Assembly: GCA_903854305.1 (NCBI GenBank)
Contig: CAINWC010000204.1
Span: 1-14,367 of the forward strand
Direction: 5' to 3'
Source of the DNA: an uncultured Pseudomonadota bacterium
GTDB lineage: Bacteria; Pseudomonadota; Gammaproteobacteria; Burkholderiales; Methylophilaceae
DNA length: 14,367 nucleotides
Part shown: in pieces, positions 1 to 14,367 of the stretch
Layout of the letters: each line of letters starts with the position of its first letter
Position numbering within the stretch: the first letter of the stretch is position 1
Notes under the pieces: generated by a model
Seen by the model: the letters and a program-made list of their open reading frames with translations, nothing else
Told to the model about the DNA's origin: nothing
The model's database searches: none
Translations under genes and position numbers: made by a program

Positions 1-20
1 AAAAGCTACAAATCCTTAAA

Positions 21-581
21 TTGAACATTGGAAATAAATTGAAGCATTGGTTTGCAGTATTGGCAATAGTGGTATCCACTACTTCGTTTGCTGAAGAGCC
101 TGTTGAATCAGGTATGTGGTCTCGCATGCAAGATTCGCTCTCTCAAACATGGGCCTCAGAAAACTATGAGCTGTATATTCCAGTGAATACCTGGCATAAC
201 CGCAGCTACTATACCGCAGAAAAAATTGATTCATATAATGAGCAACCTTGGGGTATCGGCATAGGTAAATACCGATTCGATGCTGATGGCGATTGGCATG
301 CTTTATATGTCATGACCTTTCAGGATTCGCATAATGATGCAGAGCCTGTTGCCGGGTATGCTTTTCAAAAGGTATGGCGTCCTGCTAATGACGTCCGTTT
401 AGGCGTTGGCTACACTGTTGGTATGACGATGCGTAAAGACATGGATTATATACCCATCCCTGTGATTGCTCCGCTGATGTCCGTTGCATATAAGCAATTG
501 GCAGTGCAATCTACTTACATTCTAGGGGGCGAAGGCCATGGCAATATTTTGTTTACTTGGTTGCGTTGGCAGCTTGAGTAG
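21..581 (+). CDS. pagP: Lipid A palmitoyltransferase PagP (start possibly upstream of window)
   Basis: Outer-membrane eight-stranded beta-barrel enzyme that moves a palmitate chain from a phospholipid to lipid A, which strengthens the outer membrane against cationic peptides. Seen: a signal peptide (basic start, hydrophobic core about residues 10-20, likely cleavage after SFA at 24), then a mature protein of about 160 residues, the normal PagP size. The catalytic set is present: His59 (in NTWHNR) and Asp102-Ser103 (in FQDSHN), with the same 43-residue spacing as His33, Asp76 and Ser77 of the E. coli enzyme. The sequence ends in an aromatic-rich strand (WLRWQLE). The start used is TTG at 21; the frame stays open to the left edge, so a start outside the window cannot be excluded. 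The gene converges on the regulator gene that ends 8 bp away, with no visible terminator between them. Confidence 0.9.
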   Translation: MNIGNKLKHWFAVLAIVVSTTSFAEEPVESGMWSRMQDSLSQTWASENYELYIPVNTWHNRSYYTAEKIDSYNEQPWGIGIGKYRFDADGDWHALYVMTFQDSHNDAEPVAGYAFQKVWRPANDVRLGVGYTVGMTMRKDMDYIPIPVIAPLMSVAYKQLAVQSTYILGGEGHGNILFTWLRWQLE

Positions 582-589
582 GGCGTAAC

Positions 590-1378
590 TTAAGTAGTTT
601 GGCGATACTGCACATCAGATAACAGACGATGCATTTCTTTTTTAACCACCGCGTAGCACTCGCAGACATGGGTCTCTAATCCAGACCGATCAAGCACCGA
701 AATGTGACCGCGGCGGTAATTAATCAGGCCAGCGCGCTGCAAATTGCCAGCGGCTTCAGTAATCCCTTCGCGGCGTACGCCAAGCATGCCAGCCACCAAC
801 TCTTGTGTAATGATTAAATCACTGGTCGGCATGCGGTCTAGCGTTAATAATAGCCAGCGGCATAATTGTTGCTCAACTGAGTGATGTCGGTTACAGGCCG
901 CGGTTTGGGACATCTGCGTCATCAGCGCTTGAGTGTAGCGCAACAACAAGCGTTGTAACAATCCGCCACGGTCAAATTCTCGCTTGAGCAATCGCCGATC
1001 AAGCCGATATGCATGGCCAGCAGTTTGCACCACCGCCGAGCTTGAGGTGGTGTCTCCGCCCATAAATAGCGAAATGCCGACCATCCCTTCATTACCTACC
1101 CCCGCAGATTCGGCAGATGAGCCAGATGCCATCACATAATGCAGCGATACAATCGACGTAGTAGGAAAATAGGCGTGCTGCAATTGCATGCCAGGTTCGT
1201 AGAGCATTTCACCTAGCGGCATTAAAACCAGTTCTAGATGCGGCGCTAAAAACTCGAATTCCACCGTTGGTAGCGCGGCGAGAAGATGGTTTTGATTTGG
1301 GTTAGATTGACTAGTTTTCGATTGATTAGGCTTGGTGTGATTAGCACTATTTTGATGAATGTTATGGAGTGTCGACAT
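590..1378 (-). CDS. Crp/Fnr-family transcriptional regulator
   Basis: Cytoplasmic DNA-binding regulator of 262 residues. Seen: an N-terminal tail (residues 1-30) rich in Asn, Gln and Ser; a cupin-like effector domain about residues 40-150 (LMPLGEMLYEPG, and GNEGMVGISLF near 95-105); a long dimer helix about 140-180; and a C-terminal winged helix-turn-helix about 187-230 (ITQELVAGMLGVRREGITEA, then GLINYRRGHISVLD). No Cys cluster typical of FNR is visible and the ring-type cNMP phosphate-binding signature is not clear, so the effector is unknown. The start lies 2 bp after the stop of the upstream receiver-PAS gene, with no clear ribosome-binding site of its own, so translational coupling is likely. 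It is the last gene of the minus-strand operon and the probable transcriptional output of that signalling set (inference). Confidence 0.88.
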   Translation of the reverse strand: MSTLHNIHQNSANHTKPNQSKTSQSNPNQNHLLAALPTVEFEFLAPHLELVLMPLGEMLYEPGMQLQHAYFPTTSIVSLHYVMASGSSAESAGVGNEGMVGISLFMGGDTTSSSAVVQTAGHAYRLDRRLLKREFDRGGLLQRLLLRYTQALMTQMSQTAACNRHHSVEQQLCRWLLLTLDRMPTSDLIITQELVAGMLGVRREGITEAAGNLQRAGLINYRRGHISVLDRSGLETHVCECYAVVKKEMHRLLSDVQYRQTT

Positions 1379-1380
1379 GA

Positions 1381-2253
1381 TTAGCGATCACTATTTTGTG
1401 ATTGATACTTGCCAGTAAGCTCTACACCAATTCCCCGGTAGCCAATGAATCGGCAATGCCAGTCAAACATTGGTTCGCCACTCACCTGAAATCTCCTTTG
1501 CGAACCATCAATATTAGTCTGGTGGAAGACGAAGTCTAAGAACGGTTGTCGCGCAGCAATGGTTGCTTGCAGCGTCTTTCGCTCTACCTCGTTCCAGCCC
1601 GTTAGAAGAATGTCGCTTGGCTCCTCTTTGCTAGATTTACCACCGCTTGGTTTATCGTCCAAAGCATCCATCTGAATACCGAGCATCTCGCGTACCGGGC
1701 CTGAAACCTTGGTGAAATTCATATTTTCATCCTGCTCCCAGTACCAGTCAGAGGCCAGTTCGGTCAGGCTGCGATAACGGGCTTCGCTTTCACGTAGTTC
1801 GGCGGTGCGCTCTTGCACCGTTTGTTCTAGCACTTTGTTGTAATTCTCAAGTTTTTTGTATAACAGGCGTACTTCCAGCATGTTGTGAATCCGCGTCTTA
1901 ACTTCGACTAAATCAAACGGTTTGCTGATGAAGTCTTTTGCGCCCTCTTGTAAAGCGCGCAGCTTGTGATTAGGTTGGGCGGTAAGCACGAGTACTGGCA
2001 GGTAAGCATCGTCTTGATTTATTTTGAGGGCTTTCATGACCTGAAATCCATCCATGACTGGCATCTGCAGATCCAGTAAAATAAGGTCGTAGTGATGAAT
2101 GCTGTGCAATTCACAAACTTCCTCTGGATTCATGGTGGAGGTCACCGATGTGTAACCTGTATCACTGAGCAATTGCTCAAGCAGGCTGATATTGGATTCC
2201 TGATCATCAACGATCAAGATGTTGGCATTAAGAATCTCTAGCGCGGTAATCAT
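1381..2253 (-). CDS. Response regulator receiver domain protein with C-terminal PAS domain
   Basis: Two-component signalling protein of 290 residues. Seen: a CheY-like receiver at about residues 10-125 with the acidic pair Asp16-Asp17, phospho-acceptor Asp61 (LILLDLQMPVMDGF), Thr91 and Lys111 (FISKPFD). A charged coiled-coil linker follows at about 126-160 (KKLENYNKVLEQTVQERTAEL), then a PAS/PAC domain about 160-285 (ARYRSLTELASDWYWEQDEN near its start, GYRGIGVELTG at its end). There is no kinase, GGDEF, EAL or DNA-binding output domain, so it must act through a partner. The ATG overlaps the upstream kinase-stump stop by 4 bp and is preceded 7 nt away by a strong ribosome-binding site (AAGGAGG on the minus strand, plus positions 2261-2267). 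It can therefore be translated efficiently even though its upstream gene is broken. Confidence 0.88.
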   Translation of the reverse strand: MITALEILNANILIVDDQESNISLLEQLLSDTGYTSVTSTMNPEEVCELHSIHHYDLILLDLQMPVMDGFQVMKALKINQDDAYLPVLVLTAQPNHKLRALQEGAKDFISKPFDLVEVKTRIHNMLEVRLLYKKLENYNKVLEQTVQERTAELRESEARYRSLTELASDWYWEQDENMNFTKVSGPVREMLGIQMDALDDKPSGGKSSKEEPSDILLTGWNEVERKTLQATIAARQPFLDFVFHQTNIDGSQRRFQVSGEPMFDWHCRFIGYRGIGVELTGKYQSQNSDR

Positions 2254-3059
2254 GATACTTCCTCCTTTTTAGCTAAGCGTGCTGCTTCTGTTTTCGCAAA
2301 CTTTAATGCTAAATCTAATGTATCCAAAAATTCTTTAACTTTGATCGGTTTGGTGAGGTAGCGGAAAAACCCTGCTTCCAGACCCTTTTCAATGTCGCGT
2401 GGCATTGCGTTTGCGCTGAGCGCAACCACTGGAATATGTGCGGTTTGTGGGTCGTCACTTAGCATGTTAAAGGCATCGAAACCACTGAAGCCTGGCAGAT
2501 TAATATCCATCAGGATGACATCTGGCAGCGTTGCTCGCGCAAGTTTAATGCCTTGTCTAGCATTGCTTGCACTCAATAAACGTACATCGGGCAGTCGTGC
2601 AATAATGTCCTCGACCAGCATTAAATTCGCTGGATTATCCTCAACATACAATAGTGTGTACAACAGCGCACCGTCATGAAGTTGCGATAAAGATTCTGAC
2701 TGGTGGTGTGGCGCTATGTCGGTCTGTGGATCAATGGTCAGGTCTAGTTCAATCCAGAACACACTGCCCTTACCGACAGTACTTTCCACGCCGATCTTGC
2801 CATTCATTAAATCTATCAACCGCTTGCACACCACTAGGCCGATGCCGGTACCTTCCTCTTTTGTTTTTTGTCCAAGCCTATTGAATGGCTGAAAAAGCTG
2901 CGCAAGCTGTTCTGGCTTCAGCCCGGCGCCCGTGTCTTGCACGCTGATTCGAACCGAATTTAAGGCAGTCAGGCTGCATTCCACGGTCACCGTTCCGTTA
3001 ACCTTATTATATTGGGTATCCGTATTTAGTGATTGATATCTAATTTTGTAATTATACAC
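2250..3059 (-). pseudogene. 5'-truncated hybrid histidine kinase: partial HATPase domain plus receiver domain
   Basis: Remnant of a hybrid sensor kinase. Seen: the ATPase domain starts in the middle of the N-box; family members normally read NLxSNAIKYN there, and native sequence resumes only at Tyr17-Asn18. The G1 box (DTGAG, 42-46), F-box region (QLFQPFNR) and G2 box (GTGIG, 70-74) are intact, followed by a complete receiver with Glu140-Asp141, phospho-acceptor Asp185 (VILMDINLPG), Ser215 and Lys237. The dimerisation/phospho-acceptor histidine domain and all sensing parts are missing. Residues 1-15 of the open frame, including the ATG at 3059, are encoded by the inserted element; codon 16 spans the junction. 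The native part ends at 3013. Kinase activity should be lost, while the receiver could still fold if expressed. The stop overlaps the next gene by 4 bp. The natural promoter of the operon is also gone. Confidence 0.85.
3014..3039 (+). repeat. Left terminal inverted repeat (IRL)
   Basis: Starts GGGTATCCGTATTT and continues AGTGATTGATAT. It matches the reverse complement of 8777-8802 at 23 of 26 positions (mismatches at 15, 16 and 24). It contains the core ATCCGTATTNNNTGATTGA at 3018-3036, which recurs twice more just inside this end. Confidence 0.93.
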
Positions 3060-3062
3060 TAA

Positions 3063-3081
3063 ATCCGTATTTTGTAGTTGA
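3063..3081 (+). repeat. Subterminal copy of terminal repeat core (R2)
   Basis: Direct copy of the IR core, ATCCGTATT then TTG then TAGTTGA (two mismatches in the second half), 45 bp inside the copy in IRL. Its last four bases are the first four of the -35 box of the element promoter. Likely a binding site for the same protein that binds the ends (inference). Confidence 0.75.
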
Positions 3082-3106
3082 CAACGCCTTTAATGCGGAG
3101 TATAGT
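3078..3106 (+). promoter_or_regulatory. Sigma-70 promoter of the methyltransferase-nuclease-transposase operon
   Basis: TTGACA at 3078-3083, a 17-bp spacer, and TATAGT at 3101-3106: a perfect -35 box and a near-perfect -10 box at ideal spacing. The expected transcription start is near 3113, giving a leader of about 38 nt before the ATG at 3151. The repeat copy R2 overlaps the -35 box and R3 covers the expected start site, an arrangement typical of repression by a site-bound protein. Confidence 0.8.
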
Positions 3107-3108
3107 CA

Positions 3109-3127
3109 ATCCGTATTGTATGATTGA
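3109..3127 (+). repeat. Subterminal copy of terminal repeat core (R3)
   Basis: ATCCGTATT then GTA then TGATTGA, an exact copy of both conserved blocks, in the same orientation as IRL and 46 bp inside R2. It lies on the expected transcription start of the operon. Confidence 0.78.
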
Positions 3128-3147
3128 TTAACTTTGTTTGAGGTATT

Positions 3148-6100
3148 GTGATGACTGGTGAAGTAGAGCAAAAAAAAGCGTACGTTGCAATTGAGTCAAA
3201 GCGAACCCGCCCATGGAGTAATGAGGAAGAAGTTCGTATTGCTTGGGTAGCTGCTCTGGAGGCTGCTCTCGGCGTTCATTTTGATGCTGAGAGGTCAAGA
3301 AAAGACAGTAGCTACAATAACGTTATTATCGAATTTAAGGCGCCGGGATTATTTAAGGGCTCTAAAGCGAGCTCAAAGTTTATTGAAGCCACTGAAGCAA
3401 GACTACTTCCATACATCCAGCGTGAAGCAATAAAATCAGGAATCCCTGAAGAAGATTACATCGGCATTGCAATTGATGGTGAACATATATGCTTTGCGCA
3501 AGTAATTGACGGAATTATCCATTCCCAACACCTCATTCCATTTTCAGAATATGCTGTCGGCGTAGTTATTCAAGCCATTAAAGCAGACACTCGTCGAGCG
3601 GTTACTGCTGAAAATATGATGAATGACTTTGGACATGGGTCCGAGAATGCCAAGTCATTAATGCAAGCCATGGCTGATTATCTTGCTGATGAACTATCCG
3701 TAAGTGGCAACTCTAAAATAAAGATGCTTTTTGAAGAGTGGCGTACTCTTTATGGCCAAGTTGCTGACATGTCAGTGCTGCAAGCTGACGCCATCAATAA
3801 AGAGATGTGCTTTAAATGGAATGGTAGTGCTAATGAGGCAATGTCTGGGCGCTTATTTGTGATCCACACCTATAACTCATTACTCATTAAGCTATTGGCG
3901 GCTGAGATTATTTCTGCGCATGGCTTAACGTCAACTCAACAGCCAGCTCAAGCAATGTCTGCGCTAATGGATAATTCCTCGTTATTAAATACATTATCGC
4001 AAGACATAGAGCGTGCAGGAATCTTTGTCCAAGCAGGTATTAATGGCTTTGTTGAAGAGGCTATTTTTAGCTGGTATTTAGATGTTGGTGTAAATCCGAA
4101 ACACTCTTCCACTCTGCTTCCTGCCTTACGTGGAGTGCTTGCGTCTTTATCACTTTATCGTACGGATTATTTAACGCACACCAGAGATGTTTTACGAGAC
4201 CTATATCAAGGTTTAGTACCAGGAAAATTAAGACAAAGCCTTGGTGAATTCTATACACCTGACTGGATGGTTGACTTCACTGTTGATAAGGCACAACAAG
4301 GTTCTTGGTTAGATAAGCGAGTCCTTGATCCTACGTGTGGTTCTGGGGCCTTTCTTTTAGCTGTACTACGTAGAATTCATGATGAAGCAAAACTTGCAGG
4401 ATGGAGTCCGTCTCGTATTTTGAGGCACTTATGCTCTTCTGTATGGGGGTTTGATTTAAATCCACTTGCAGTTCAAACAGCACGCGTTAACTTCCTGATG
4501 GAAATAGCTTCCTTAATGAGAGCTTGTCCAGGACAATCATTGGAGATTCCCGTGTTATTGGCTGACGCCATTTACTCTCCAGCACCTGATCCAACGCCAG
4601 GCCAAAATGTTGTACGATACCAGATTGGTAGCCAGGTAGCTGGGCTTGATATTACTTTACCTTCAGCGCTGGCATTTGATCGCACGCGTCTTGATCAAGT
4701 ATTCGCTCAAATGGGTGAAGATGTAGAGTTAAACCTTGATTATGTTGAAGCTGAATCAAAACTAATTGCGTCTGGATTAGCTTCTAATGATGAGATTGAA
4801 GAATGGAGAGAACCATTAAAGCACACATACGATCAGATTCTTGATCTTCATAGGAAGCAGTGGAATGGCATCTGGTTCCGTGTCGTGCGTAATTTCTTTT
4901 GGTCTGCTACAGCAGGTCACTTTGATAGCATTATCGGCAATCCACCATGGGTGCGCTGGTCCAAGCTCCCTGATGCTTACCGCGAGCGAGTTAAGCCTAC
5001 CTGTGAGCGTTATGGGATATTCTCTAAAAATAAACGCCATGGCGGCAATGAATTAGATATTTCAGCCATGATTACTTACACCACGGCCGATAAATGGTTG
5101 AAACCTAATGGCCGGCTTGCATTTGTAATTACTGGCACTATTTTCAAGAACCCATCATCGGCAGGTTTTAGGCATTTTAAACTGGAGCCAAGTAATCCTA
5201 ACTCCATGCATTTATCGCCAGTGTCAGTAGATGATATGAAAGCCTTAAAGACGTTTGAGGATGCATCAAATCACACTGTTATAGCAATCTTTGATAAGCG
5301 TACTAAGCCTGGCATTTACCCTGTTCCTTACTACTTATGGGATAGCGTAGCAGGACAGACAAAAGTGATTCCTTCAAGATTAACATTGCAAGCCGTTCTT
5401 GCTCGTACCGCCATTTCTACAATGGAAGCCGTTCCAGTAGATGTGGAAGGGTCGCCATGGTCTGTATTAGCTAAAGGCCGATATGCTCAACTTAAAGCGC
5501 TATCAGGCGTTTGTTCATGGGCAGTTGGTAGAAAAGGTATTACAACAGATTTAAATGGCGTGTATTTCGTTCCAGTCATAAAAGATAACGGAACACTCGT
5601 TCAAATCAACAGTAGGCCAGAAGCAGGAAAGAAAGATATTGGTCCAGTAAAGACAGCATGGGTAGAGCCTGAATTGCTTTATCCTTTAGTTAAAGGTGCC
5701 GGTGATTTTGAGTCATGTTATCTAAGGCTTAATAATCCAAGTCGTACTGAACCTTTACTCTATACTTTCGTTACCAATCGAGGTATTGATAAGACTGACT
5801 TTGCTGCAATAGAATCTTCTATGAATGCTCCTGCATTAGCAAAAACAAAAGCATGGTTCAGCGCCTATAAAACATTGCTAAATGATCGATCAACATACCG
5901 TAGGCAGTTGATTGGCGCTCCATTTTATTCTGCTTACAATGTTGGTGATTACACATTCCAGCCTTGGAAAGTTGTATGGCCTGAGATGTCTAGTAAATTC
6001 TATGCTGCGGTTGCTGGCAGCGCATTGGTTCCAGTGGCTGGACGTCGCCCTTTTGTTCCTGATCACAAGGTCTACTTCGCTGCTTTTGATGATAAAGAAC

Positions 6101-6381
6101 CTGCTTATTTTTTATGTGGTTTATTGAACGCACCTATGGTTCGAGAATGGATAGAAAGCCATATTGTGTCGATTCAGGTTGGCGACGTATTCAAACACAT
6201 GTCACTACCAGAATATGATGAAACTGACATAGATCACCTAGACTTAGCTACACTTGTCGAGCAAGCACATAACGAACATAATCAAGTAAACAGGGCCGTT
6301 ATTGTGTCAAACGTAGAGGTAACTGGTGAAGTTATTCTAAAAAAATGGATGAAAGCCAAAAGTAAAGGTAAGAAGATATGA
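3148..6381 (+). CDS. Type IIG-like restriction-modification protein: N-terminal PD-(D/E)XK motif plus N6-adenine DNA methyltransferase
   Basis: Large single-chain protein (1077 residues from GTG 3148; ATG 3151 is the likelier start, 7 nt after AGG). Seen: an N-terminal nuclease-like motif with Asp53 and Glu62-Phe-Lys64 (KDSSYNNVIIEFKAP), preceded by a Glu-rich helix; a helical connector; then the methyltransferase core with LGEFYTPDWMVD at about 365-376, AdoMet-binding DPTCGSGAF at 394-402 and the catalytic motif IV NPPW at 598-601 (adenine-N6 type). The part after about residue 700 probably holds the target recognition domain. This order (nuclease, connector, methyltransferase, specificity) is that of type IIG enzymes, so one polypeptide may both cut and methylate DNA. 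It could also be methylase-only with a degenerate nuclease. It is the first gene of the element, reads from the strong promoter at 3078, and overlaps the next gene by 4 bp (ATGA). Confidence 0.85.
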   Translation: MMTGEVEQKKAYVAIESKRTRPWSNEEEVRIAWVAALEAALGVHFDAERSRKDSSYNNVIIEFKAPGLFKGSKASSKFIEATEARLLPYIQREAIKSGIPEEDYIGIAIDGEHICFAQVIDGIIHSQHLIPFSEYAVGVVIQAIKADTRRAVTAENMMNDFGHGSENAKSLMQAMADYLADELSVSGNSKIKMLFEEWRTLYGQVADMSVLQADAINKEMCFKWNGSANEAMSGRLFVIHTYNSLLIKLLAAEIISAHGLTSTQQPAQAMSALMDNSSLLNTLSQDIERAGIFVQAGINGFVEEAIFSWYLDVGVNPKHSSTLLPALRGVLASLSLYRTDYLTHTRDVLRDLYQGLVPGKLRQSLGEFYTPDWMVDFTVDKAQQGSWLDKRVLDPTCGSGAFLLAVLRRIHDEAKLAGWSPSRILRHLCSSVWGFDLNPLAVQTARVNFLMEIASLMRACPGQSLEIPVLLADAIYSPAPDPTPGQNVVRYQIGSQVAGLDITLPSALAFDRTRLDQVFAQMGEDVELNLDYVEAESKLIASGLASNDEIEEWREPLKHTYDQILDLHRKQWNGIWFRVVRNFFWSATAGHFDSIIGNPPWVRWSKLPDAYRERVKPTCERYGIFSKNKRHGGNELDISAMITYTTADKWLKPNGRLAFVITGTIFKNPSSAGFRHFKLEPSNPNSMHLSPVSVDDMKALKTFEDASNHTVIAIFDKRTKPGIYPVPYYLWDSVAGQTKVIPSRLTLQAVLARTAISTMEAVPVDVEGSPWSVLAKGRYAQLKALSGVCSWAVGRKGITTDLNGVYFVPVIKDNGTLVQINSRPEAGKKDIGPVKTAWVEPELLYPLVKGAGDFESCYLRLNNPSRTEPLLYTFVTNRGIDKTDFAAIESSMNAPALAKTKAWFSAYKTLLNDRSTYRRQLIGAPFYSAYNVGDYTFQPWKVVWPEMSSKFYAAVAGSALVPVAGRRPFVPDHKVYFAAFDDKEPAYFLCGLLNAPMVREWIESHIVSIQVGDVFKHMSLPEYDETDIDHLDLATLVEQAHNEHNQVNRAVIVSNVEVTGEVILKKWMKAKSKGKKI

Positions 6382-7433
6382 CCTCTATTATTAACCCAAA
6401 TGATGAATATGCATCTTGGCTTATTGAGATCAAGAAGAGAATTCGCGAGGCTCAAACAAAAGCGATTGTTGCTGTTAACTCAGAACTTATAATGCTCTAT
6501 TGGCAAATTGGTCACGATATTATTCAGCGGCAGAAGAATAATGGCTGGGGCTCTAAAGTTATTGAGCAGGTGGCTGCAGATTTGCGAAAAGAGTTTCCTG
6601 ATATGAAAGGTTTTGCACCAAGAAGTCTGAGTGCAATGCTTGCTTTTGCTAAGGCGTGGCCTAATAAAGAAATCTTGCCACAGCTTGTGGCAAAATTGCC
6701 TTGGGGTCATAATCGATTGCTTCTTGATAAGCTTAAATCAACGTCAGAGCGTGAGTGGTATGCTAAGGCCTCTATTGAAAATGGCTGGAGTCGCAACGTT
6801 TTGCTTCACCATTTAGAAACCAATGCGATTGTTCGCTTTGGCTCAGCTATCACAAATTTCAATAAAACATTGCCAGCGCCACAATCAGAGCTTGCTCAAC
6901 AACTGATTAAAGATCCTTACATCCTCGACTTTATGACGTTAGAGGCTGATGCAAAGGAACGTGAGCTTGAGAACGGATTAATTGAACATCTGCAAGCATT
7001 TCTTATGGAACTTGGCAAAGGATTCACATTCGCTGGCCGCCAATACCATCTCTCTGTTGGAGGTCAAGACTTTTATTTGGACCTATTGTTTTACAATACA
7101 GACCTCCATTGCTATGTTGTAATTGATCTTAAGATTGATGAGTTTAAGCCAGAATATGTTGGCAAAATGCAATTCTATCTCGCAGCAGTTGATGATCTGA
7201 AGAAGAGTGATCGCGACGAGCCATCTATAGGGTTAATTCTATGTAAGACCAAAAACGGGATTATTGCTGAATATGCTTTACGCGACTCAAGCAAACCAAT
7301 TGGTATCGCTGAATACAAAGTTTTACCACCAGAAATAGCTAAAGCATTGCCATCCATTAAGGAGCTTGAAGTTGAGCTTTCTGATGACGAGTCAGCCCCA
7401 CCTCCGCCATCTGGTACAAAGTTCGGTAAATAA
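6378..7433 (+). CDS. DUF1016/YhcG-family PD-(D/E)XK nuclease domain protein
   Basis: Protein of 351 residues. Seen: an N-terminal helical DUF1016 domain about 10-155 (AVNSELIMLYWQIGHDIIQ, GFAPRSLSAMLAFAKAWP, LPWGHNRLLLDKL) and a C-terminal PD-(D/E)XK nuclease fold about 175-330. The catalytic candidates are Asp235 (DFYLDLLFYN), Asp250 and Lys252 (YVVIDLKIDEFKPEYVGKMQ), with Gln265 after them. Family members are known as predicted nucleases often found beside restriction-modification genes; their exact role is poorly known. The tail is acidic and Pro-rich (DDESAPPPPSG). The start overlaps the methyltransferase stop by 4 bp, so expression is coupled, and the transposase begins 2 bp after its stop. 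Its place inside a transposon between a restriction enzyme and the transposase suggests a defence role, but a role in the element's own life cycle is equally open. Confidence 0.88.
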   Translation: MTSIINPNDEYASWLIEIKKRIREAQTKAIVAVNSELIMLYWQIGHDIIQRQKNNGWGSKVIEQVAADLRKEFPDMKGFAPRSLSAMLAFAKAWPNKEILPQLVAKLPWGHNRLLLDKLKSTSEREWYAKASIENGWSRNVLLHHLETNAIVRFGSAITNFNKTLPAPQSELAQQLIKDPYILDFMTLEADAKERELENGLIEHLQAFLMELGKGFTFAGRQYHLSVGGQDFYLDLLFYNTDLHCYVVIDLKIDEFKPEYVGKMQFYLAAVDDLKKSDRDEPSIGLILCKTKNGIIAEYALRDSSKPIGIAEYKVLPPEIAKALPSIKELEVELSDDESAPPPPSGTKFGK

Positions 7434-7435
7434 TC

Positions 7436-8773
7436 ATGCCAGCAAACATCCTCAACCTACCATCATACACGGTTACAGCGCTTCAAGAGAACGATCACGA
7501 CTACCACATCGATGCTGTAGCGAAAAATCGCCCTGAGTGCTGCCCTCATTGCCAGTCTAACAACCTGGTTGGCTTCGGTCGTCGTGAGCAAATGGTAAAA
7601 GACTTACCAATGCACGGTAAGCGTGTTGGTTTGTATGTTGAGACTAAGCGCTTTCAATGCAGATCATGCGACAAAACATTCTATGAATCACTGCCTGATG
7701 TTGATGAAAAACGCATGATGACTAGCCGCTTAGCCGCATGGGTTGGCAAGCAGGCGATCAAGCGCACCTTTGCGTCCATTGCAGAAGATGTTGGTATTAA
7801 CGAAGGCACCGTTCGTTCAGTCTTTCGCGACTACATTAACGAGCTTGAAAGCACTGTGCGCTTTGATACGCCTAAATGGATGGGTATCGATGAGATTCAT
7901 CTGATTAAGCCGCGTGGCGTCATTACCAATATTGAAAATAATACAGTCGTTGAACTATTAGCGAATCGTAATAAAGAAACGATTATTAAGTACCTTTTTA
8001 ACCTTGAAGGCAAACAGCACATTCAATACGTAACGATGGACATGTGGCGGCCGTATAAAGATGCTGTTGAAGATGTGCTTCCGCAGGCCAAGATAGTGAT
8101 TGATAAGTTCCATGTCGTTAAGATGGCTAACGAAGCCTTAGAGCGCGTTAGAAAGAGCTTCCGTGAGTCTCTAACACCTAAACAACGCAGAGGCCTGATG
8201 CATGATCGTTTTATCTTACTGAAGCGTGAATCAGAGCTCACTGATAAAGAAGTCTCACTTGTTGCCAATTGGTTAAATAACTACCCGGAACTTGGTAAGG
8301 CTTATCGACTTAAGGAAGACTTTTTCAATATCTATAAAGCTAACTCAAGAAGTGAAGCATTAGTAAGATTTGCTGATTGGGAAAAGTCGATTACCCCTGA
8401 TGTTCGCGATGCATTTGCTGATTTAATTAGAGCCTTTCGCAACTGGCAGCCTTATATTCTTAACTACTTCGATCATCCCGTGACCAATGCTTATACAGAG
8501 TCGCTGAACAGCTTAATTCGCGTAATGGATAGACTAGGCAGGGGTTATAGCTTTGAAGCGCTGAGAGCCAAGATACTGTTTGCAGAAGGAGCATTCAAAA
8601 AGCAATTAATTAGGCCTAAGTTTGAACGTCGTAATGTTCCTGATTACGCAACTATTGGTTATGCCAGAGTGGATGATTTCAGAGCATATCAACCAGAACC
8701 GCCTCAAAAGGAAATCAACTATGGGGTGGATATATCAACATTAGTATCCATGATTGAAAATGGTGAGATTTAG
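7436..8773 (+). CDS. ISL3-family transposase
   Basis: DDE transposase of 445 residues, normal for the family. Seen: an N-terminal zinc-binding region with Cys35/Cys36-Pro-His-Cys39 and Cys75-Arg-Ser-Cys78; a helix-turn-helix at about 112-131 (FASIAEDVGINEGTVRSVF); then the RNase H-like catalytic core with Asp152 (MGIDEIHL), Asp202 (VTMDMWRPYKDAV) and Glu355 (NAYTESLNSLIRVMDRLGRGYSFE), all intact, with the usual helical insertion between the second Asp and the Glu. It starts 2 bp after the nuclease stop without a convincing ribosome-binding site, so it is probably translated by re-initiation at a low level. It cuts and joins the element's ends and is the best candidate for binding the repeat core at both ends and near the promoter. 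Confidence 0.95.
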   Translation: MPANILNLPSYTVTALQENDHDYHIDAVAKNRPECCPHCQSNNLVGFGRREQMVKDLPMHGKRVGLYVETKRFQCRSCDKTFYESLPDVDEKRMMTSRLAAWVGKQAIKRTFASIAEDVGINEGTVRSVFRDYINELESTVRFDTPKWMGIDEIHLIKPRGVITNIENNTVVELLANRNKETIIKYLFNLEGKQHIQYVTMDMWRPYKDAVEDVLPQAKIVIDKFHVVKMANEALERVRKSFRESLTPKQRRGLMHDRFILLKRESELTDKEVSLVANWLNNYPELGKAYRLKEDFFNIYKANSRSEALVRFADWEKSITPDVRDAFADLIRAFRNWQPYILNYFDHPVTNAYTESLNSLIRVMDRLGRGYSFEALRAKILFAEGAFKKQLIRPKFERRNVPDYATIGYARVDDFRAYQPEPPQKEINYGVDISTLVSMIENGEI

Positions 8774-8776
8774 GCC

Positions 8777-8802
8777 ATTTCAATCATGAAATACGGATAC
8801 CC
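8777..8802 (-). repeat. Right terminal inverted repeat (IRR)
   Basis: Read on the minus strand it starts GGGTATCCGTATTT, then CATGATTGAAAT, matching IRL at 23 of 26 positions. It lies 3 bp past the transposase stop codon. Its outer edge is 19 bp from the -35 part of the fliC promoter. Confidence 0.92.
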
Positions 8803-8821
8803 GAAAATTTAAGGCTCACCC

Positions 8822-8848
8822 TAAACTTTCTAAAAAGCCTACCGATAA
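8822..8848 (+). promoter_or_regulatory. FliA (sigma-28) promoter of fliC
   Basis: TAAACTTT at 8822-8829, 11-bp spacer, ACCGATAA at 8841-8848: one mismatch from consensus in each box (TAAAGTTT-N11-GCCGATAA). It would give a leader of about 85 nt ahead of the flagellin start. The mobile element stops just before it and leaves it intact. Confidence 0.88.
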
Positions 8849-8939
8849 TAGTTACATCAGCAGCGCAATTAGCACTTAACTGCAACGCTACAGGCAATAC
8901 GATGTAAATGAAATTTAATTTAAATTTAGGAGAATTATC

Positions 8940-9779
8940 ATGGCTTCAGTTATTAATACCAACATCAATTCATTAAATACACAACGTAATTTAAGTGCTT
9001 CACAAAGCTCACTTAGTACAGCAATGCAACGCTTGTCATCTGGTTTACGTATTAATAGTGGTGCGGATGATGCTTCTGGCTTGGCGATTGCTACAAAAAT
9101 GGACTCACAAATTCGCGGCATGAACGTGGCGATTCGTAACTCTAATGACGCGATTTCATTTGCGCAAACTGCAGATGGTGGTTTAAGTAAAGTGACTGAT
9201 TCATTACAACGTATGCGTGAACTAGCGGTTCAAGGTGCCAACGGAACCACTGATAACGCAAGTTTAGCAGCAGAATTTGGCCAACTACAATCTGAAATTA
9301 CCCGTGTGTCCGGTAGTACAAACTTTAACGGTACTAATACCTTGGGCGCAACTGCAGCATCAGGTATTGATTTCCAAGTAGGAACTGGTACATCAGCTAC
9401 TTTAGATGTGGTTCAGGTTAAAGGTGTAGACATCACTGCTTCTGGTTCTGATACAGCAAAAACCGCAGCAAGTACAATAAAAGTTGATAGCGCTGCAAAC
9501 TCATTACTAGCAATTGCTCAAATTGATTTGGCGATTACAGAAGTCAATGGTGCTCGTGCTACATTTGGTGCCGTGCAAAACCGCTTCTCATCCATTGTAA
9601 GTAACTTGCAAATTTCTTCTGAAAATCAGTCTGCTGCTAAATCACGCATCATGGATACGGACTTTGCGGCAGAAACTGCAAACTTGACTCGTGCGCAAAT
9701 CTTGCAGCAAGCAGGTACAGCAATGTTAGCGCAAGCCAACTCATCACCAAATGGTGTGTTAGCGCTACTAAGAGGCTAA
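8940..9779 (+). CDS. fliC: Flagellin FliC
   Basis: Main subunit of the flagellar filament, exported by the flagellar type III apparatus. Seen: the conserved N-terminal D0/D1 coiled-coil half (INTNINSLNTQRNLSASQSS, then RLSSGLRINSGADDASGLAIA; about residues 1-130), a very short variable middle (about 130-185), and the C-terminal D1/D0 half (QNRFSSIVSNL, ending in ALLRG). At 279 residues it is a short flagellin lacking large outer D2/D3 domains, as in many betaproteobacteria. A strong ribosome-binding site (AGGAGA at 8928-8933) lies 7 nt before the ATG. It is transcribed alone from the FliA promoter upstream and ended by the hairpin downstream. No terminator separates it from the transposase gene, so element transcripts could also enter it. 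Confidence 0.97.
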   Translation: MASVINTNINSLNTQRNLSASQSSLSTAMQRLSSGLRINSGADDASGLAIATKMDSQIRGMNVAIRNSNDAISFAQTADGGLSKVTDSLQRMRELAVQGANGTTDNASLAAEFGQLQSEITRVSGSTNFNGTNTLGATAASGIDFQVGTGTSATLDVVQVKGVDITASGSDTAKTAASTIKVDSAANSLLAIAQIDLAITEVNGARATFGAVQNRFSSIVSNLQISSENQSAAKSRIMDTDFAAETANLTRAQILQQAGTAMLAQANSSPNGVLALLRG

Positions 9780-9819
9780 GTGAAAGCGGTTTAATCTTTA
9801 AAGGTTTTAACATTAAGCG

Positions 9820-9851
9820 CCCACAGAACTTATTGTTCTGTGGGTTTTTTT
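9820..9851 (+). terminator. Rho-independent terminator after fliC
   Basis: Perfect 10-bp stem (CCCACAGAAC / GTTCTGTGGG) with a TTATT loop, followed by seven T. It isolates the highly expressed flagellin message from flaG. Confidence 0.95.
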
Positions 9852-9916
9852 ATGGCGATGATCAAGCAATTTAATTGAGACTTAAAACAACATTGAAATA
9901 TTTTTTGCAATAACCC

Positions 9917-9943
9917 TAAATTTTTATAAATCCTTGCCGATAA
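9917..9943 (+). promoter_or_regulatory. FliA (sigma-28) promoter of flaG
   Basis: TAAATTTT at 9917-9924, 11-bp spacer, perfect GCCGATAA at 9936-9943. Expected start near 9950, a leader of about 70 nt before flaG. It may also drive fliD, fliS and fliT, because no terminator is visible after flaG. Confidence 0.88.
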
Positions 9944-10019
9944 GTTAAGTAAGTAGTTAATAAATCTATTATTTGTATGAGGTTTAATCATCATATGGAT
10001 ATTTGCAAAGGAGATCATC

Positions 10020-10388
10020 ATGTTCAATTCGTCGTTAGAGGCTTATGGTTCAGTTAGAAAGCTGGCGGCTGTACAAAATTTTGCAGGTGGCGCAAGTGCA
10101 ATAGTGACTAAGCCTGTTGTGAAAACTGACAATATTAAGCTTGAAAATAAACCTGTTGCAGTGGATAAAGCTTCGCTGGTTACTGCCGTTAATAAACTTA
10201 ATGAGTTTGTAGCACCAGCGTTACAAACAGTAGAGTTTGCAATCGATGATCAGTCTGCACGTATGGTGGTTAAAGTGGTGGATACCGCCTCCAAAAAAGT
10301 ATTACGGCAGATTCCGAATGAGGAAGTGCTGGCAATGTCTAAAACGTTGGATAAGCTGCAAGGCTTGGTGATTAGGCAAACTGCTTAA
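10020..10388 (+). CDS. flaG: FlaG family flagellar protein
   Basis: Small protein (122 residues) of the FlaG family, found next to flagellin and cap genes and linked to filament length or assembly; the biochemical role is not well defined. Seen: a variable first half and the typical conserved C-terminal half from about residue 70 (LQTVEFAIDDQSARMVVKVVD, KKVLRQIPNEEVLAMSKTLDKLQGLVI), predicted to be two strands plus a helix. A strong ribosome-binding site (AAAGGAG, 10007-10013) lies 6 nt before the ATG. It has its own FliA promoter and is followed after about 120 bp by fliD. That gap is AT-rich and holds no clear terminator. Confidence 0.9.
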   Translation: MFNSSLEAYGSVRKLAAVQNFAGGASAIVTKPVVKTDNIKLENKPVAVDKASLVTAVNKLNEFVAPALQTVEFAIDDQSARMVVKVVDTASKKVLRQIPNEEVLAMSKTLDKLQGLVIRQTA

Positions 10389-10509
10389 GTAATGTGGGTT
10401 TGTTCTAGCATTAGGGTTGATGGTCTATGAGATATAGTCGATTTTTGTTTAGTTATATTTTTGTTGGCAATAAATTTGTTTAACTAATAACCGTTAAAAA
10501 GGATTTCAC

Positions 10510-12129
10510 ATGGGTATTTCATCAGCAGGAATAGGTTCTGGTCTTGATGTGAATGGCATTGTGACTAGCTTAATGGCGATTGAACAAAAGCCATTAACAG
10601 CGGTGAATAATCAAAAAACCAGCTATCAATCACAGATATCTGCTTATGGCACACTGAGTAGTAGCTTGGCTACTTTTCAGACTACGGTACAAGCGCTTTC
10701 TAATCCCGCTAGCTTTAATGCACAGACTGTGACATCGGATAATCCCAGTGTGTTTACTGCCACCGCCAATGGCAGCGCGACGATTGGTAATTATGCGGTA
10801 ACCGTGAGCCAGTTGGCAGCACAGCAGAAACTAGCCTCAACAGGATTCCCCAGCGCCACATCCACAATTGCTACAGGACCATTGTCTATTGCTTTTGGTA
10901 GCTATGCGTCAACCAGCCCTTATGGCTTTACTGCGAATACGGCTAAAACGCCATTAAACATTACCATTGATAGTACAAACAACACGCTGTCGGGCGTACG
11001 CGATGCGATTAATGCTGCAAATGCGAGTGTTAGTGCAACCATTGTGAACAATGGCACGAGCAATCAACTTGTGATTACCTCAAAAGATACTGGCGAGGTG
11101 AATAGCTTACAAATATCTGGCATTGCCGCGCTGGCTTATGACTCAAGTACTGGCGTTAATGCCATGACGCAAATGCAGGCTGCAAAAAATGCCAATTTAA
11201 ATATTGATGGCATTAACGTAGTGAATGCCAGCAATAATATTTCCAATGTTATTGACGGCGTTACACTTAATTTACTGACAACCAGTGGCGGCGTTAGTGC
11301 AAACTTGGGTGTAACGACTAATCAAGGTGCAGTGACCTCATCAGTTACCGCATTTGTGAATGCTTACAATAGCTTGGATAGCACCTTACGTAACCTGACT
11401 AAATATGACCCAACCGGTGCAGCATCTGGTGTGTTACTGGGCGATGCTACAACACGCTCACTCATTAGTCAGATTAAATCTGTAATGACTAAGGCGATTG
11501 CTAGCAGCGGCAGTCTTTCCTCATTGAGTCAAATAGGCGTGTCTTTTCAAAGTAGCGGTCAATTGGCGTTGGATTCAACCAAGTTATCTGCAGTCATGAC
11601 TTCTAACTTTAGTGATATTGCAACCTTATTTGCAACCACGGCAAAAGTAACAGACCCGCAAATGAGTTACTCTGCCAGCAGCAGTAAAACAAAGGTTGGC
11701 AACTATGCTATTACGGTAAGTAGCCTATCCCCATTGGCTGGAATGATTAATGGTGTTGCGGCAACGGTGAATGGTACCCATTTAGTGGGTGCGGTTGGAG
11801 ATGCTAGTGAAGGTTTGGATATAAAAGTTTCTGGCACCGCGACAGGCTCTCGTGGTACGGTGAGTTTTACTATAGGCTATGCTGCACAGTTGAACAGTGT
11901 GATCACAAACTTACTAGGCACCAGCGGTATGTTGACTTCAAGAACTGATGGTATTAAAAGTTCTATCACTCGATTGGATAATCAAGCAGCAGCTATTAGC
12001 GCTAGGTTAACTACGATTGAGAAAAATTATCGTGCCCAATATACTAGGCTGGATACCTTGATGTCCAGCATGACGGCTACCAGCACTTATCTCACGCAGC
12101 AAATTGCATCAATCAATGCTAATAAGTAA
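10510..12129 (+). CDS. fliD: Flagellar filament cap protein FliD
   Basis: Forms the cap at the filament tip that folds and inserts flagellin subunits; exported through the flagellar channel. At 539 residues it has the normal length. Seen: an N-terminal FliD_N domain about 5-105 (GIGSGLDVNGIVTSLMAIE, then long coiled coil), a variable Ser/Thr/Asn-rich middle with a flagellin hook-IN type stretch near 150-200 (TIDSTNNTLSGVRDAINAAN), and a FliD_C domain about 267-535, ending in a coiled-coil helix (SSITRLDNQAAAISARLTTI). A ribosome-binding site (AAGGA at 10499-10503) lies 6 nt before the ATG. fliS follows after 33 bp, so the two are probably co-transcribed. Confidence 0.96.
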   Translation: MGISSAGIGSGLDVNGIVTSLMAIEQKPLTAVNNQKTSYQSQISAYGTLSSSLATFQTTVQALSNPASFNAQTVTSDNPSVFTATANGSATIGNYAVTVSQLAAQQKLASTGFPSATSTIATGPLSIAFGSYASTSPYGFTANTAKTPLNITIDSTNNTLSGVRDAINAANASVSATIVNNGTSNQLVITSKDTGEVNSLQISGIAALAYDSSTGVNAMTQMQAAKNANLNIDGINVVNASNNISNVIDGVTLNLLTTSGGVSANLGVTTNQGAVTSSVTAFVNAYNSLDSTLRNLTKYDPTGAASGVLLGDATTRSLISQIKSVMTKAIASSGSLSSLSQIGVSFQSSGQLALDSTKLSAVMTSNFSDIATLFATTAKVTDPQMSYSASSSKTKVGNYAITVSSLSPLAGMINGVAATVNGTHLVGAVGDASEGLDIKVSGTATGSRGTVSFTIGYAAQLNSVITNLLGTSGMLTSRTDGIKSSITRLDNQAAAISARLTTIEKNYRAQYTRLDTLMSSMTATSTYLTQQIASINANK

Positions 12130-12162
12130 GTCAATACTTTTTAAGAACAAGTAAAGGATACG

Positions 12163-12657
12163 ATGATGTTTGGACAAAATAAACGTGGAGTCAGCGGTTA
12201 TGCACAAGTGAATGTAGAGACAGGTGTTCTTGCTGCTAGCCCAAATAAACTAATCATCATGCTTTATGAAGGTGCTATTACTGCTTGTTATAGCGCAATA
12301 AGGCATATGCAGGCCGCAGAAGTTCAGAAAAAGGGCGACATGTTTTCTCAAGCTATTATGATTATAGAGAGCGGCCTCAGACTTAGCCTTAATAAAAAAA
12401 CCGGCGGTGAGATTGCTGAAAGTTTGGATGCCCTTTACGCTTATATGAGTAACCGATTGACTATGGCAAATGTGCATAACCAGCCAGAGTTGGTGTATGA
12501 AGTGATTAAGTTGTTAACAGAGTTGAAAAGTGCATGGGAAGCAATCGGTAATATACAAACAACACCGCAAGCAACAGCGCCAGTCATTGCCATGGTTCAA
12601 CCTAATCAGGGTGCTGCGGCTGTTAATCGCAATATTGCTAATTACGCAAAGGTGTAA
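12163..12657 (+). CDS. fliS: Flagellar export chaperone FliS
   Basis: Cytoplasmic helical-bundle chaperone that binds the flagellin C-terminus, stops early polymerisation and delivers it to the export gate. Seen: the conserved N-terminal stretch YAQVNVETGVLAASPNKLI and MLYEGAI at about 13-39, the helical core to about residue 127, and an extra Ala/Gln/Pro-rich tail to 164 that makes it longer than the usual 120-135 residues. The tail looks disordered and its role is unknown. A ribosome-binding site (AAAGGA) lies just upstream; ATG at 12163 and 12166 are both possible starts. fliT begins 3 bp after the stop. Confidence 0.94.
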   Translation: MMFGQNKRGVSGYAQVNVETGVLAASPNKLIIMLYEGAITACYSAIRHMQAAEVQKKGDMFSQAIMIIESGLRLSLNKKTGGEIAESLDALYAYMSNRLTMANVHNQPELVYEVIKLLTELKSAWEAIGNIQTTPQATAPVIAMVQPNQGAAAVNRNIANYAKV

Positions 12658-12660
12658 TGT

Positions 12661-12984
12661 ATGGAATACCAAAATACCATTGCTCTATATGAAGAAGTGG
12701 CCGAGCTAACTAAGCAAATGCTGTTAGCCGCCAGGCAGCAGGATTGGGACAAGCTGACTGAGCTGGAAACAAAATGCGCGCAGCATGTGGCACATCTTAA
12801 AATGATTAAAGATGCCTTGCCGCTACCTAAAGAAGGGCGCGAGCGCAAAGTGGCGAGTATTAAGAGCATTCTTGCCGATGACCGTGAGATTCGTAATTTA
12901 GTATCGCCTTGGATGGCGAGGTTGAATGCGCTGATTAACAGCCATAAAACCAGTAGTAAAATGACGCGTGCTTACGGTCAATAA
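12661..12984 (+). CDS. fliT: FliT-like flagellar export chaperone
   Basis: Small all-helical protein of 107 residues. In the enterobacterial system FliT is the chaperone for the cap protein FliD and also tunes flagellar gene expression by binding FlhDC. Seen: an amphipathic helical pattern throughout with a DWDKLTELE motif (residues 28-36), typical of FliT-like proteins; no other domain. It starts 3 bp after the fliS stop and its ribosome-binding site (AAAGG) lies inside the end of fliS, so the two are coupled. The family is poorly conserved, so the assignment rests on position after fliD-fliS plus this pattern. Confidence 0.82.
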   Translation: MEYQNTIALYEEVAELTKQMLLAARQQDWDKLTELETKCAQHVAHLKMIKDALPLPKEGRERKVASIKSILADDREIRNLVSPWMARLNALINSHKTSSKMTRAYGQ

Positions 12985-12998
12985 ATGATGCCTTTATC

Positions 12999-14066
12999 AT
13001 GATGCTCAAACAGCCAGATCTTGCCGGGGTTAATCCAGTTTCCAGGGTAATGCCGGTGCTGGTTGTGGATAGCATTGGTAGTACTGCGCAGGAGCTTGGT
13101 GATAGAGCGACGCAGTTTGTAAAAGGTCAGGAATATTTCGCCCATGTACTTTCGAACGTAAGTGGTACTACTTTTACCGTAAAAGTGGATGGCCTTGATC
13201 TTAAAAATGCAGCGCTAAAAGGCGCGGGCATTGAAAATACGGACCTTAAAGGTACTGGACTTAAAAGTACCGATAATAAAGCCAGCATCCCTACGGATGT
13301 TCTCCTTAAAATGGATCTTGGTGCTGCGGCTAAAACCGGTCAAACATTGTCGCTGCGCTATATGCATAGTGATCCAGTACTGACATTTTTACTCACACAG
13401 ACACCGAGCAACGTGGCTGGAAGTACCACGGACATTAGCGCAGCGGCAAGTCTCATTGGCAATTACTTAAAACAGGCAGAGAACGACGGTGTGTCGACTC
13501 GTTTAGAGGCGACAGCTGTTGTTACACATACGCCCAACAACGCACAAGTAATGGCACATGATTTAAAACAAGCGGTCAGTAATAGTGGCTTATTTTATGA
13601 ATCGCATCTGAGTGATCTCATACAAAATAATCAAACGCTGGCAGCGATTAAGCTAGAGCCGCAGAATCAAAATGGCTCGCCGCTAGCGGCTTTAATGTCT
13701 CAACAATTAGCCGTTTTGGAAAATCAGCGCATGTCATGGCATGGCGAAGTATGGCCTGGGCAGAAAATGCATTGGGATGTTTATCTGGAGCCACGTGATG
13801 TACTGGACGATGGAGATACTTGGTCTTCTAATTCGTCGCAAGATGATAAAGGCCGGCCTATTTCTAGCGAGATGACGCTACATTTGCCGCATTTGGGTAA
13901 AGTCTCTGCTAAATTAATGTTAGTGGATGGTCGCATGCGCATCAGTATTCTTGCTGATCAAATGGCGACATTAGACGCGCTTAAAAGTCAACGGCAAAGC
14001 CTGGCTGAGGCTATTGTAAAAAATGGTCAGCAGTTAGATGCTTTAACGGTGGTGCAGCATGAATAA
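12999..14066 (+). CDS. fliK: FliK-like flagellar hook-length control protein
   Basis: Protein of 355 residues whose C-terminus matches the FliK/Flg_hook domain (about 235-350): MSWHGEVWPGQKMHWDVYLE, then MTLHLPHLGKVSAKLMLVDG and a final amphipathic helix ending GQQLDALTVV. FliK proteins measure hook length and switch export from hook to filament subunits by touching the FlhB C-domain. The N-terminal part contains a small beta domain (about 40-125) interrupted by pentapeptide-like repeats at residues 66-90. It starts 14 bp after fliT with no clear ribosome-binding site. The next gene starts inside its last codons and encodes an FlhB C-domain, the expected FliK partner. It may be a second, FliK-like paralogue and not the main hook ruler, since it is not beside hook genes here. 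Confidence 0.75.
   Translation: MMLKQPDLAGVNPVSRVMPVLVVDSIGSTAQELGDRATQFVKGQEYFAHVLSNVSGTTFTVKVDGLDLKNAALKGAGIENTDLKGTGLKSTDNKASIPTDVLLKMDLGAAAKTGQTLSLRYMHSDPVLTFLLTQTPSNVAGSTTDISAAASLIGNYLKQAENDGVSTRLEATAVVTHTPNNAQVMAHDLKQAVSNSGLFYESHLSDLIQNNQTLAAIKLEPQNQNGSPLAALMSQQLAVLENQRMSWHGEVWPGQKMHWDVYLEPRDVLDDGDTWSSNSSQDDKGRPISSEMTLHLPHLGKVSAKLMLVDGRMRISILADQMATLDALKSQRQSLAEAIVKNGQQLDALTVVQHE
13194..13268 (+). repeat. Tandem pentapeptide-coding repeat inside the fliK-like gene
   Basis: Five in-frame 15-bp units encode LDLKN, AALKG, AGIEN, TDLKG and TGLKS, with a degenerate sixth (TDNKA). The central Leu/Ile every five residues is the hallmark of pentapeptide repeats. At DNA level the last two units are closest (GACCTTAAAGGT and GGACTTAAAAGT), which points to recent duplication or slippage. 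Confidence 0.65.
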
Positions 14067-14367
14067 TCGTAGCAGCAGCGCTGTTGTTAATCCCAATTTG
14101 ATTAATAAAGCGAGCCATAATCCTAATCAGCAAGCGATTGCATTAGCCTACGGTGCGGGTGATTATGCGCCAAAAGTGGTAGCCAAAGGTCGTGGTTTGA
14201 TTGCGGAACAGATTATCGCCAGAGCCAAGGAGCATGATGTATTTGTGCATGAATCTAAAGACTTGGTCGCGCTATTGATGCAGGTTGATCTTGATGACCA
14301 CATTCCTCCCGCCTTGTATCAGGCTATTGCCGAGGTGTTGATGTATCAGACAAAGACGAGGATGGCA
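14059..14367 (+). CDS. Orphan FlhB C-terminal domain (EscU/YscU-type) protein, truncated by window end
   Basis: Open frame of 103 codons without a stop before the right edge. Seen: an FlhB cytoplasmic domain without the membrane part: NPNQQAIALAY at 21-31, APKVVAKGRGLIAEQIIARA at about 37-56, then HIPPALYQAIAEVL near 81-94, the typical end of the domain. FlhB is the switch in the flagellar export gate; its NPTH motif self-cleaves between Asn and Pro. Here that motif reads NPNQ, so cleavage is unlikely. Free-standing FlhB C-domains next to a FliK-like gene occur in other bacteria. The ATG overlaps the end of the fliK-like gene by 8 bp, showing coupling. It probably ends shortly after the window. 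Confidence 0.82.
   Translation, partial: MNNRSSSAVVNPNLINKASHNPNQQAIALAYGAGDYAPKVVAKGRGLIAEQIIARAKEHDVFVHESKDLVALLMQVDLDDHIPPALYQAIAEVLMYQTKTRMA

Follow-up and report, generated by a model that had tools for sequence, protein, structure and literature searches.

How single-gene restriction-modification (R-M) and toxin-antitoxin (TA) systems move is an old question, and Furuta's work of 2010 on putative mobile forms of R-M systems reportedly, by its title, treats R-M genes as mobile units. The question is raised in compact form by a contig of an uncultured Methylophilaceae bacterium (CAINWC010000204.1, positions 1 to 14,367; hereafter the window), where an R-M gene and a transposase gene share one pair of inverted repeats. 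According to our analysis, window positions 3014-8802 constitute one ISL3-family transposon, with three genes of the same direction between inverted repeats GGGTATCCGTATTT. The repeats pair at 22 of their outer 25 bases and start with GG, as the ISL3 family requires. The genes encode a type IIG restriction-methylation enzyme, a DUF1016 (YhcG) nuclease and an ISL3 transposase; the first two overlap by 4 bp and a gap of 2 bp precedes the third. Coordinates, genes and couplings agree with an original prediction made from the bare sequence. With a single transposase and a single pair of ends the element is not a composite transposon flanked by insertion sequences, and with all three genes matching families other than the Tn3 transposase and resolvase it is not a TA-bearing Tn3 transposon.

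The 1077-amino-acid (aa) protein is a single-chain type IIG R-M enzyme with predicted restriction and methylation activity. It matches the Pfam families Eco57I and N6_Mtase and the PADLOC profile PDLC03630 (E 1.2e-230 over residues 24-1048 of 1077). Its N-terminus holds a PD-(D/E)XK-like stretch, followed by the N6-adenine methyltransferase motifs DPTCGSGAF and NPPW and a predicted C-terminal specificity part. Among 11 aligned relatives, DPTCGSG and NPPW are present in all 11 and the N-terminal EFK in 10 (L018 has ELK). A search of solved structures returned one weak match, 3ufb. The transposase is of the ISL3 DDE type with a zinc ribbon and a helix-turn-helix, as judged by profile match.

Relatives of the transposase were sought by pattern-scanning 84,980 species, each represented by a single genome; this gave 93 loci that were confirmed, of which 80 were retained (L numbers). 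Plasmid and whole-genome searches added further loci, with ends and duplications sought by script. Plasmid records with a transposase identity above 56% number at least 16 (H1-H16), of which 9 were fetched (all but the seven H5, H8-H12 and H14). At a tight cut-off the transposase is rare, being found in 4/369 genomes of the class, 11/399 of the order and 3/398 of the phylum, with the own genome included in every count. Before counting, L196 and L201 (identical to L028 and L030), near-identical copies (L020, L033, L113, L142, L143) and broken, partial or distant transposases (e.g., L048, L060, L065, L096-L100, L103-L105 and viral loci L181-L193) were dropped. L039, L049, L055, L063 and L079 were left out of the tree, as was most of a group with 35-45% transposase identity, three of which served as outgroup. 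The tree is a quick search in which some joins involve long branches. The class of each cargo was decided manually, once the Pfam names or record annotations had been read; L044 was classed by its 96.5% identity to L028, and L010 by similarity to the window IIG protein.

The clade of the window transposase comprises 36 tree rows, and 30 of them carry recognised cargo upstream of the transposase, which is R-M in 7 and of TA type in 23. The refuting outcomes named with the original prediction did not materialise: the transposase does not always stand alone between these repeats. The R-M rows represent four enzyme kinds, and metal or drug resistance cargo was found in none of the 30. Outside the clade, nine rows could be assigned, four with R-M or TA and five with metal or drug cargo (30/30 versus 4/9, Fisher p 2.2e-4, the rows not all being independent events). 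One-off capture was ruled out because cargo is general in the clade. The cargo pattern was noted midway, and the later loci L139 and L140 fit it, as do ten later genome loci (L194, L195, L197-L200, L202-L205; 10/10 R-M or TA type), a sample that overlaps the first by kinship (L194 with L025, L197 with L140, L195 and L198 with L019, L199 and L200 with L108, L203 and L205 with L109).

R-M cargo takes the form of an Eco57I methylase with a BsuBI/PstI nuclease (L025, L194, L139), an ISP-type enzyme (L107), a IIG enzyme (L010), an N6 methylase with specificity fragments and also DUF1016 (L022), or, in Bacillota, a D12 methylase with a SacI nuclease (L032, L036; L033 is identical to L032). Where methylase and nuclease genes are separate, the methylase comes first (L025, L139, L194, L032, L036). 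Cargo of TA type includes nucleotidyltransferases with HEPN/HepT partners (L024, L029, L031, L108, L199, L200, L204; in L110 the nucleotidyltransferase is from record annotation, and L202 has HepT only), AbiEii (L109, L205), DUF433-DUF5615 (L023), DUF5615 alone (L026), DUF6036 (L114) and Fic (L028, L030, L203, L198 just over the cut-off, L019 and L195 just under it, and L044 by identity), together with cargo that we take to be VapD-like (L140, L197). In L107 (683-7994, a Pandoraea plasmid), the ISP-type cargo gene is split by an IS21-family insertion.

The original prediction had proposed the trio of IIG, DUF1016 and ISL3 genes as the unit to look for elsewhere, and this trio did not recur in 199 related genomes or in the 10 plasmid contexts fetched; the recurring feature is the slot, not a particular cargo. 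Besides the own gene, the IIG protein occurs at three places in two of the 199 genomes. It matches 168 plasmid records, 20 of them with at least 80% coverage, and one of the 10 contexts (L010) has an ISL3 transposase of this type beside it. The nearest relative, L022 (5939-11366), has the same ends and an 88% identical transposase in broken frames; it keeps DUF1016 at 54% identity, but in place of the IIG gene it has a type I-like methylase with specificity fragments. On plasmids of Klebsiella and Chitinibacter, IIG relatives (L012, and L021 at 3903-7758) lie 16 bp after a recombinase-family gene, possibly another mobile association.

Mapped on the transposase tree, 15 cargo kinds on 39 rows require 19 changes, compared with a mean of 27.9 and a minimum of 25 in 200 shuffles. 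To some extent, therefore, cargo goes with the transposase, but it has been exchanged on many occasions. In 12 of 23 clade members the script placed the cargo stop at -1 to +3 relative to where the transposase gene starts, and L108 joins them by annotation; other distances in the clade reach 165 bp by script, and L027 gave none. Such close coupling was seen in 0/7 outlying members (the starts of L036 and L040 are not exactly placed).

In other genomes, too, relatives are enclosed by ends of this kind, so the matching repeats around cargo and intact transposase, as first noted in the window, are above chance. Of the 30 cargo rows, 23 have two recognised ends. Left and right ends are known for 25 clade elements; every one of these terminates 29-31 bp past the transposase stop, and an exact 8-bp duplication is present in 18. 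The clade units measure 1.9-8.9 kb, with one transposase and usually one module. Whole units also recur at different sites. L019 and L020, on two plasmids, are 99.86% identical over 4420 bp, and L028 and L044 are 96.5% identical over 3275 bp; in both pairs the flanks differ between the two copies, as do the 8-bp duplications, all of them exact. L032 and L033, from one genome, are 100% identical over 3483 bp and differ in their left flanks (the contigs stop at the right end), and further examples are L035/L113 and, in one genome, L141/L143. The claim that the cargo lies inside the insertion sequence and its operon, as a self-mobilising unit, is supported by this anatomy and by its recurrence throughout the clade.

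Other transposase loci add variety. The assembly of the symbiont Candidatus Enterovibrio escacola has eleven (including L039, L040, L045 and L049); four have ends 2.2-2.3 kb apart, and the three examined contain a cargo open reading frame (ORF) of 180-199 aa, which in L040 has no Pfam match. L047 (7658-11353), from a Nitrospirae metagenome-assembled genome, has ends matching at 25/25 bases, an exact duplication and three ORFs with no Pfam match.

Table 1. Features of the ISL3-family transposon and its borders (window coordinates).
Feature	Position	Strand	Basis or remark
Left flank ATTATATT	3006..3013	+	Inside histidine kinase gene; probably from another insertion
Left terminal inverted repeat GGGTATCCGTATTTAGTGATTGATAT	3014..3039	+	22/25 match with right end
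Internal end-repeat copy 2 AATCCGTATTTTGTAGTTG	3062..3080	+	Element position 49; 3' edge enters -35 box
Promoter-like site TTGACA-17-TATAGT	3078..3106	+	11/12; best match of 2950-9000
Internal end-repeat copy 3 AATCCGTATTGTATGATTG	3108..3126	+	Element position 95, right after -10 box
Type IIG restriction-methylation enzyme, 1077 aa	3148..6381	+	PADLOC/Pfam profiles; motifs in 11-sequence alignment
DUF1016/YhcG PD-(D/E)XK nuclease family, 351 aa	6378..7433	+	YhcG_C 8.9e-63, DUF1016_N 1.2e-43; PADLOC PDC-S02
ISL3-family transposase, 445 aa, intact ORF	7436..8773	+	NF033550, 300.9 bits (cut-off 180)
Right terminal inverted repeat	8777..8802	-	End 29 bp past transposase stop
Right flank GAAAATTT	8803..8810	+	Equals 8 bases preceding left end on C54; probable target duplication

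The left end has a structure of its own. Across relatives, two extra copies of the end repeat occur, one near positions 49-60 and the other near 95-116. Two per left end make 54 expected sites in 27 left ends, and 47 of them score at least 12 of 19, with 0.89 expected in mononucleotide shuffles; the phase windows were fixed only after a first scoring of left ends, and the seven left ends fetched afterwards (L195, L197-L200, L204, L180) have 11/14 sites. A -35/-10 pair of at least 9/12 occurs in the scanned stretch of 17/27 left ends, and in 15 of these 17 it lies at position 65 or 74-76, which puts the -35 box on the border of repeat 2 and the -10 box immediately ahead of repeat 3. This arrangement suggests an autoregulated promoter, to whose repeats the transposase may bind. 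The notion that cargo and transposase are read from one message holds as far as anatomy goes, in that the best promoter-like site faces the operon from the left end; transcription itself is inferred.

The draft genome (445 contigs, 90.4% complete) contains further copies of the ends. A search with the element end gave eight sites, two being the window's own, and the first 23 bases of the left terminal repeat recur on contigs C54, C77 and C358. C54 finishes in 130 bases identical to the left end and C77 begins with 81 such bases, while C70 and C217 hold ends of other ISL3 copies. The same element is probably present in at least three places of this genome. Since the flank on C54 equals the right flank in the window, the element is probably multicopy and the flanks in the window probably stem from two insertions, joined either by assembly or by recombination between copies. 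The view that the lack of a duplication means that no transposition took place was dropped once the left ends on C54 and C77 were seen. On C358 (L159, 126-2304), a left end that is 88% identical across 115 bases precedes a 690-aa HSDR_N-N6 methyltransferase ORF, a second R-M-like element of this genome. On C247 (L160, 4321-4985), a phosphoribosyltransferase ORF (Pfam Pribosyltran), an unusual cargo that runs off the contig, comes after a left end with 88% identity across 40 bases. For the second transposase of the own genome (L102), scripts found no left end.

The histidine kinase at the left border is without its first 620-800 residues; in three relatives the kinase has 873-1074 aa, and the window copy aligns from residue 622 or 802. 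A close homologue is present in 13/52 genus genomes (own included). In all seven relatives fetched the same regulator follows the kinase, with a Crp-like gene next in six (in the seventh the contig breaks off), and the 9-18 kb read around the kinase contain no match to flagellin. A native neighbourhood of histidine kinase and flagellin is therefore unlikely, kinase and regulator standing together without flagellin in the seven relatives.

We posit that the element is an autonomous ISL3-family transposon with an R-M module in a cargo slot between left end and transposase, combining a single promoter, autorepression, retention through its cargo and exchange of cargo, and we consider this fairly probable. 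The ends, the gene order and coupling, several identical left ends, the family-wide cargo exchange and the promoter-like site at a recurring place can be read from the genomes, and on them the following mechanism is proposed. One left-end promoter would read the IIG gene, the DUF1016 nuclease and then the transposase, and binding of the transposase to the internal repeats would shut it down. A new arrival would then produce a burst of modification enzyme and transposase, followed by a low steady level. The cargo would retain the transposon in the lineage, as a cell that lost the R-M or TA genes would be exposed to toxin or nuclease left behind, and the cargo may also restrict entering phage or plasmid DNA. 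Swaps of cargo between related transposases would let the family spread such modules. That relatives hold different defence or TA systems in one slot suggests a family of miniature transposons spreading them, in which the addiction or defence function of the cargo is predicted from sequence. More tentatively, with slightly less than an even chance, the clade may have specialised in carrying R-M and TA modules that can be swapped for one another. The left end would then be a self-regulating cassette, a promoter set between repeats that the transposase binds, downstream of which any defence or addiction module could be inserted stop-to-start with the transposase, and one repressor-transposase would set the dose of toxin or nuclease and of transposition.

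Several observations weigh against this proposal. Six of the 36 clade rows have no recognised cargo (L027, L054, L102, L106, L179, L180). In 7/30 cargo rows the script paired no left end (L026, L030, L031, L194, L202, L203, L205); cargo lies upstream of the transposase in all seven, and in L194 a degenerate left end is visible by eye. The TA class takes in families with a merely presumed toxin role (Fic, DUF6036), and the Cas2-family matches of L140 and L197 and the Fic matches of L019 and L195 are just under the Pfam cut-off. No exact duplication was seen in 7/25 elements (the window, L024, L029, L106, L114, L140, L195); the 8-bp flanks in the window, ATTATATT and GAAAATTT, are alike at 3/8 positions, its duplication is supplied solely by the cross-contig match to C54, and the identity of the further copies rests on 81-130 bp, their interiors being unassembled. 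The scanned place has no promoter of at least 9/12 in 10/27 left ends, and the region holds 14 promoter-like sites compared with 13.9 in shuffles, so that support for the promoter comes from its recurring position across elements. Finally, L022 is broken in both cargo and transposase, and it is without the internal repeats and the promoter arrangement.

An alternative is that the cargo is kept for defending the host, and a resident plasmid, against phages or plasmids, with no role in stabilising the transposon. IIG, BsuBI/PstI-type, SacI-type and ISP-type enzymes and AbiE-type genes, all of which occur as cargo, are known or candidate anti-phage systems. DUF433-DUF5615, VapD-like, HepT-nucleotidyltransferase and Fic modules are better known as TA type, however, and occur in this same slot and clade, a pattern that accords with addiction no less well; we regard pure host defence as rather unlikely. 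Ordinary passenger capture, in which ISL3 elements take any neighbouring gene and R-M and TA genes are merely common in mobile DNA, would account for the P-type ATPase, cation efflux or MFS genes in the outlying kin L035, L052, L141, L051 and L038 (L141-L143 carry cation efflux and ArsP permease genes, Pfam having been run on L141). It would likewise account for the viral-contig clade members L179 and L180, in which no cargo was recognised (not run against Pfam), and for the metal-related or permease genes reported in the available parts of the articles on ISPst2 (PMC6305408) and ISPpu12a (PMC4447125). Against it, every recognised cargo of the clade and of the ten later loci is R-M or TA type, and we consider it improbable. 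That the window arrangement is a product of assembly or recombination, its R-M genes lying outside any mobile unit, is most improbable, as the unlike flanks, the shortened kinase and the lack of a flagellin match near the kinase in seven relatives concern the flanks alone, whereas interior, ends and operon are continuous, C54 has the matching flank, and the relative L010, on a complete plasmid, has IIG gene and transposase in the same order and is flanked by an exact duplication.

Among known systems, the transposon resembles ISPst2, an ISL3 element with passengers, same-type ends (left inverted repeat GGGTATCCGGAATTTCTGGTTGAT) and 8-bp direct repeats (PMC6305408), and ISPpu12a, which compares in family, size and the presence of a passenger (PMC4447125); these and the following comparisons draw on the accessible portions of the cited articles. 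The passengers of ISPst2 and ISPpu12 are an ArsR regulator with a permease, or czcD, whereas the window clade carries R-M and TA modules. Clade cargo is often stop-to-start with the transposase. TA-bearing Tn3 transposons likewise hold several TA kinds at one fixed place in the transposition module (Lima-Mendez 2020, PMC7157771). They have a Tn3 transposase and resolvase, however, with the TA genes beside res, mostly upstream of the resolvase, while the window clade has a cargo operon with the ISL3 transposase last, and R-M cargo goes unmentioned for Tn3 in the portion consulted (PMC7157771). Tn7-like transposons also bear defence and TA genes, but with Tn7-type machinery and mixed cargo, in contrast to one transposase and usually one module in the window clade (PMC8649781). 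No description of R-M or TA cargo in ISL3 elements was found in the accessible portions of the open literature searched (PMC6305408, PMC7371123, PMC4447125, PMC7157771, PMC12707154, PMC8649781); ISfinder/TnPedia and subscription papers lay outside this search and may hold a prior description. ISL3 passengers and TA genes in Tn3 are known already, and R-M and TA modules in one exchangeable ISL3 slot are apparently new within that literature.

With carrier, ends, target duplications and candidate promoter all visible here, a single small element would allow experiments to tell selfish stabilisation from host defence, and its ends can serve as a search key for more such units. If the clade is indeed such a specialised vehicle, these transposons would be among the smallest autonomous mobile defence or addiction units, and solitary R-M and TA systems would have in them a means of travelling between chromosomes and plasmids.

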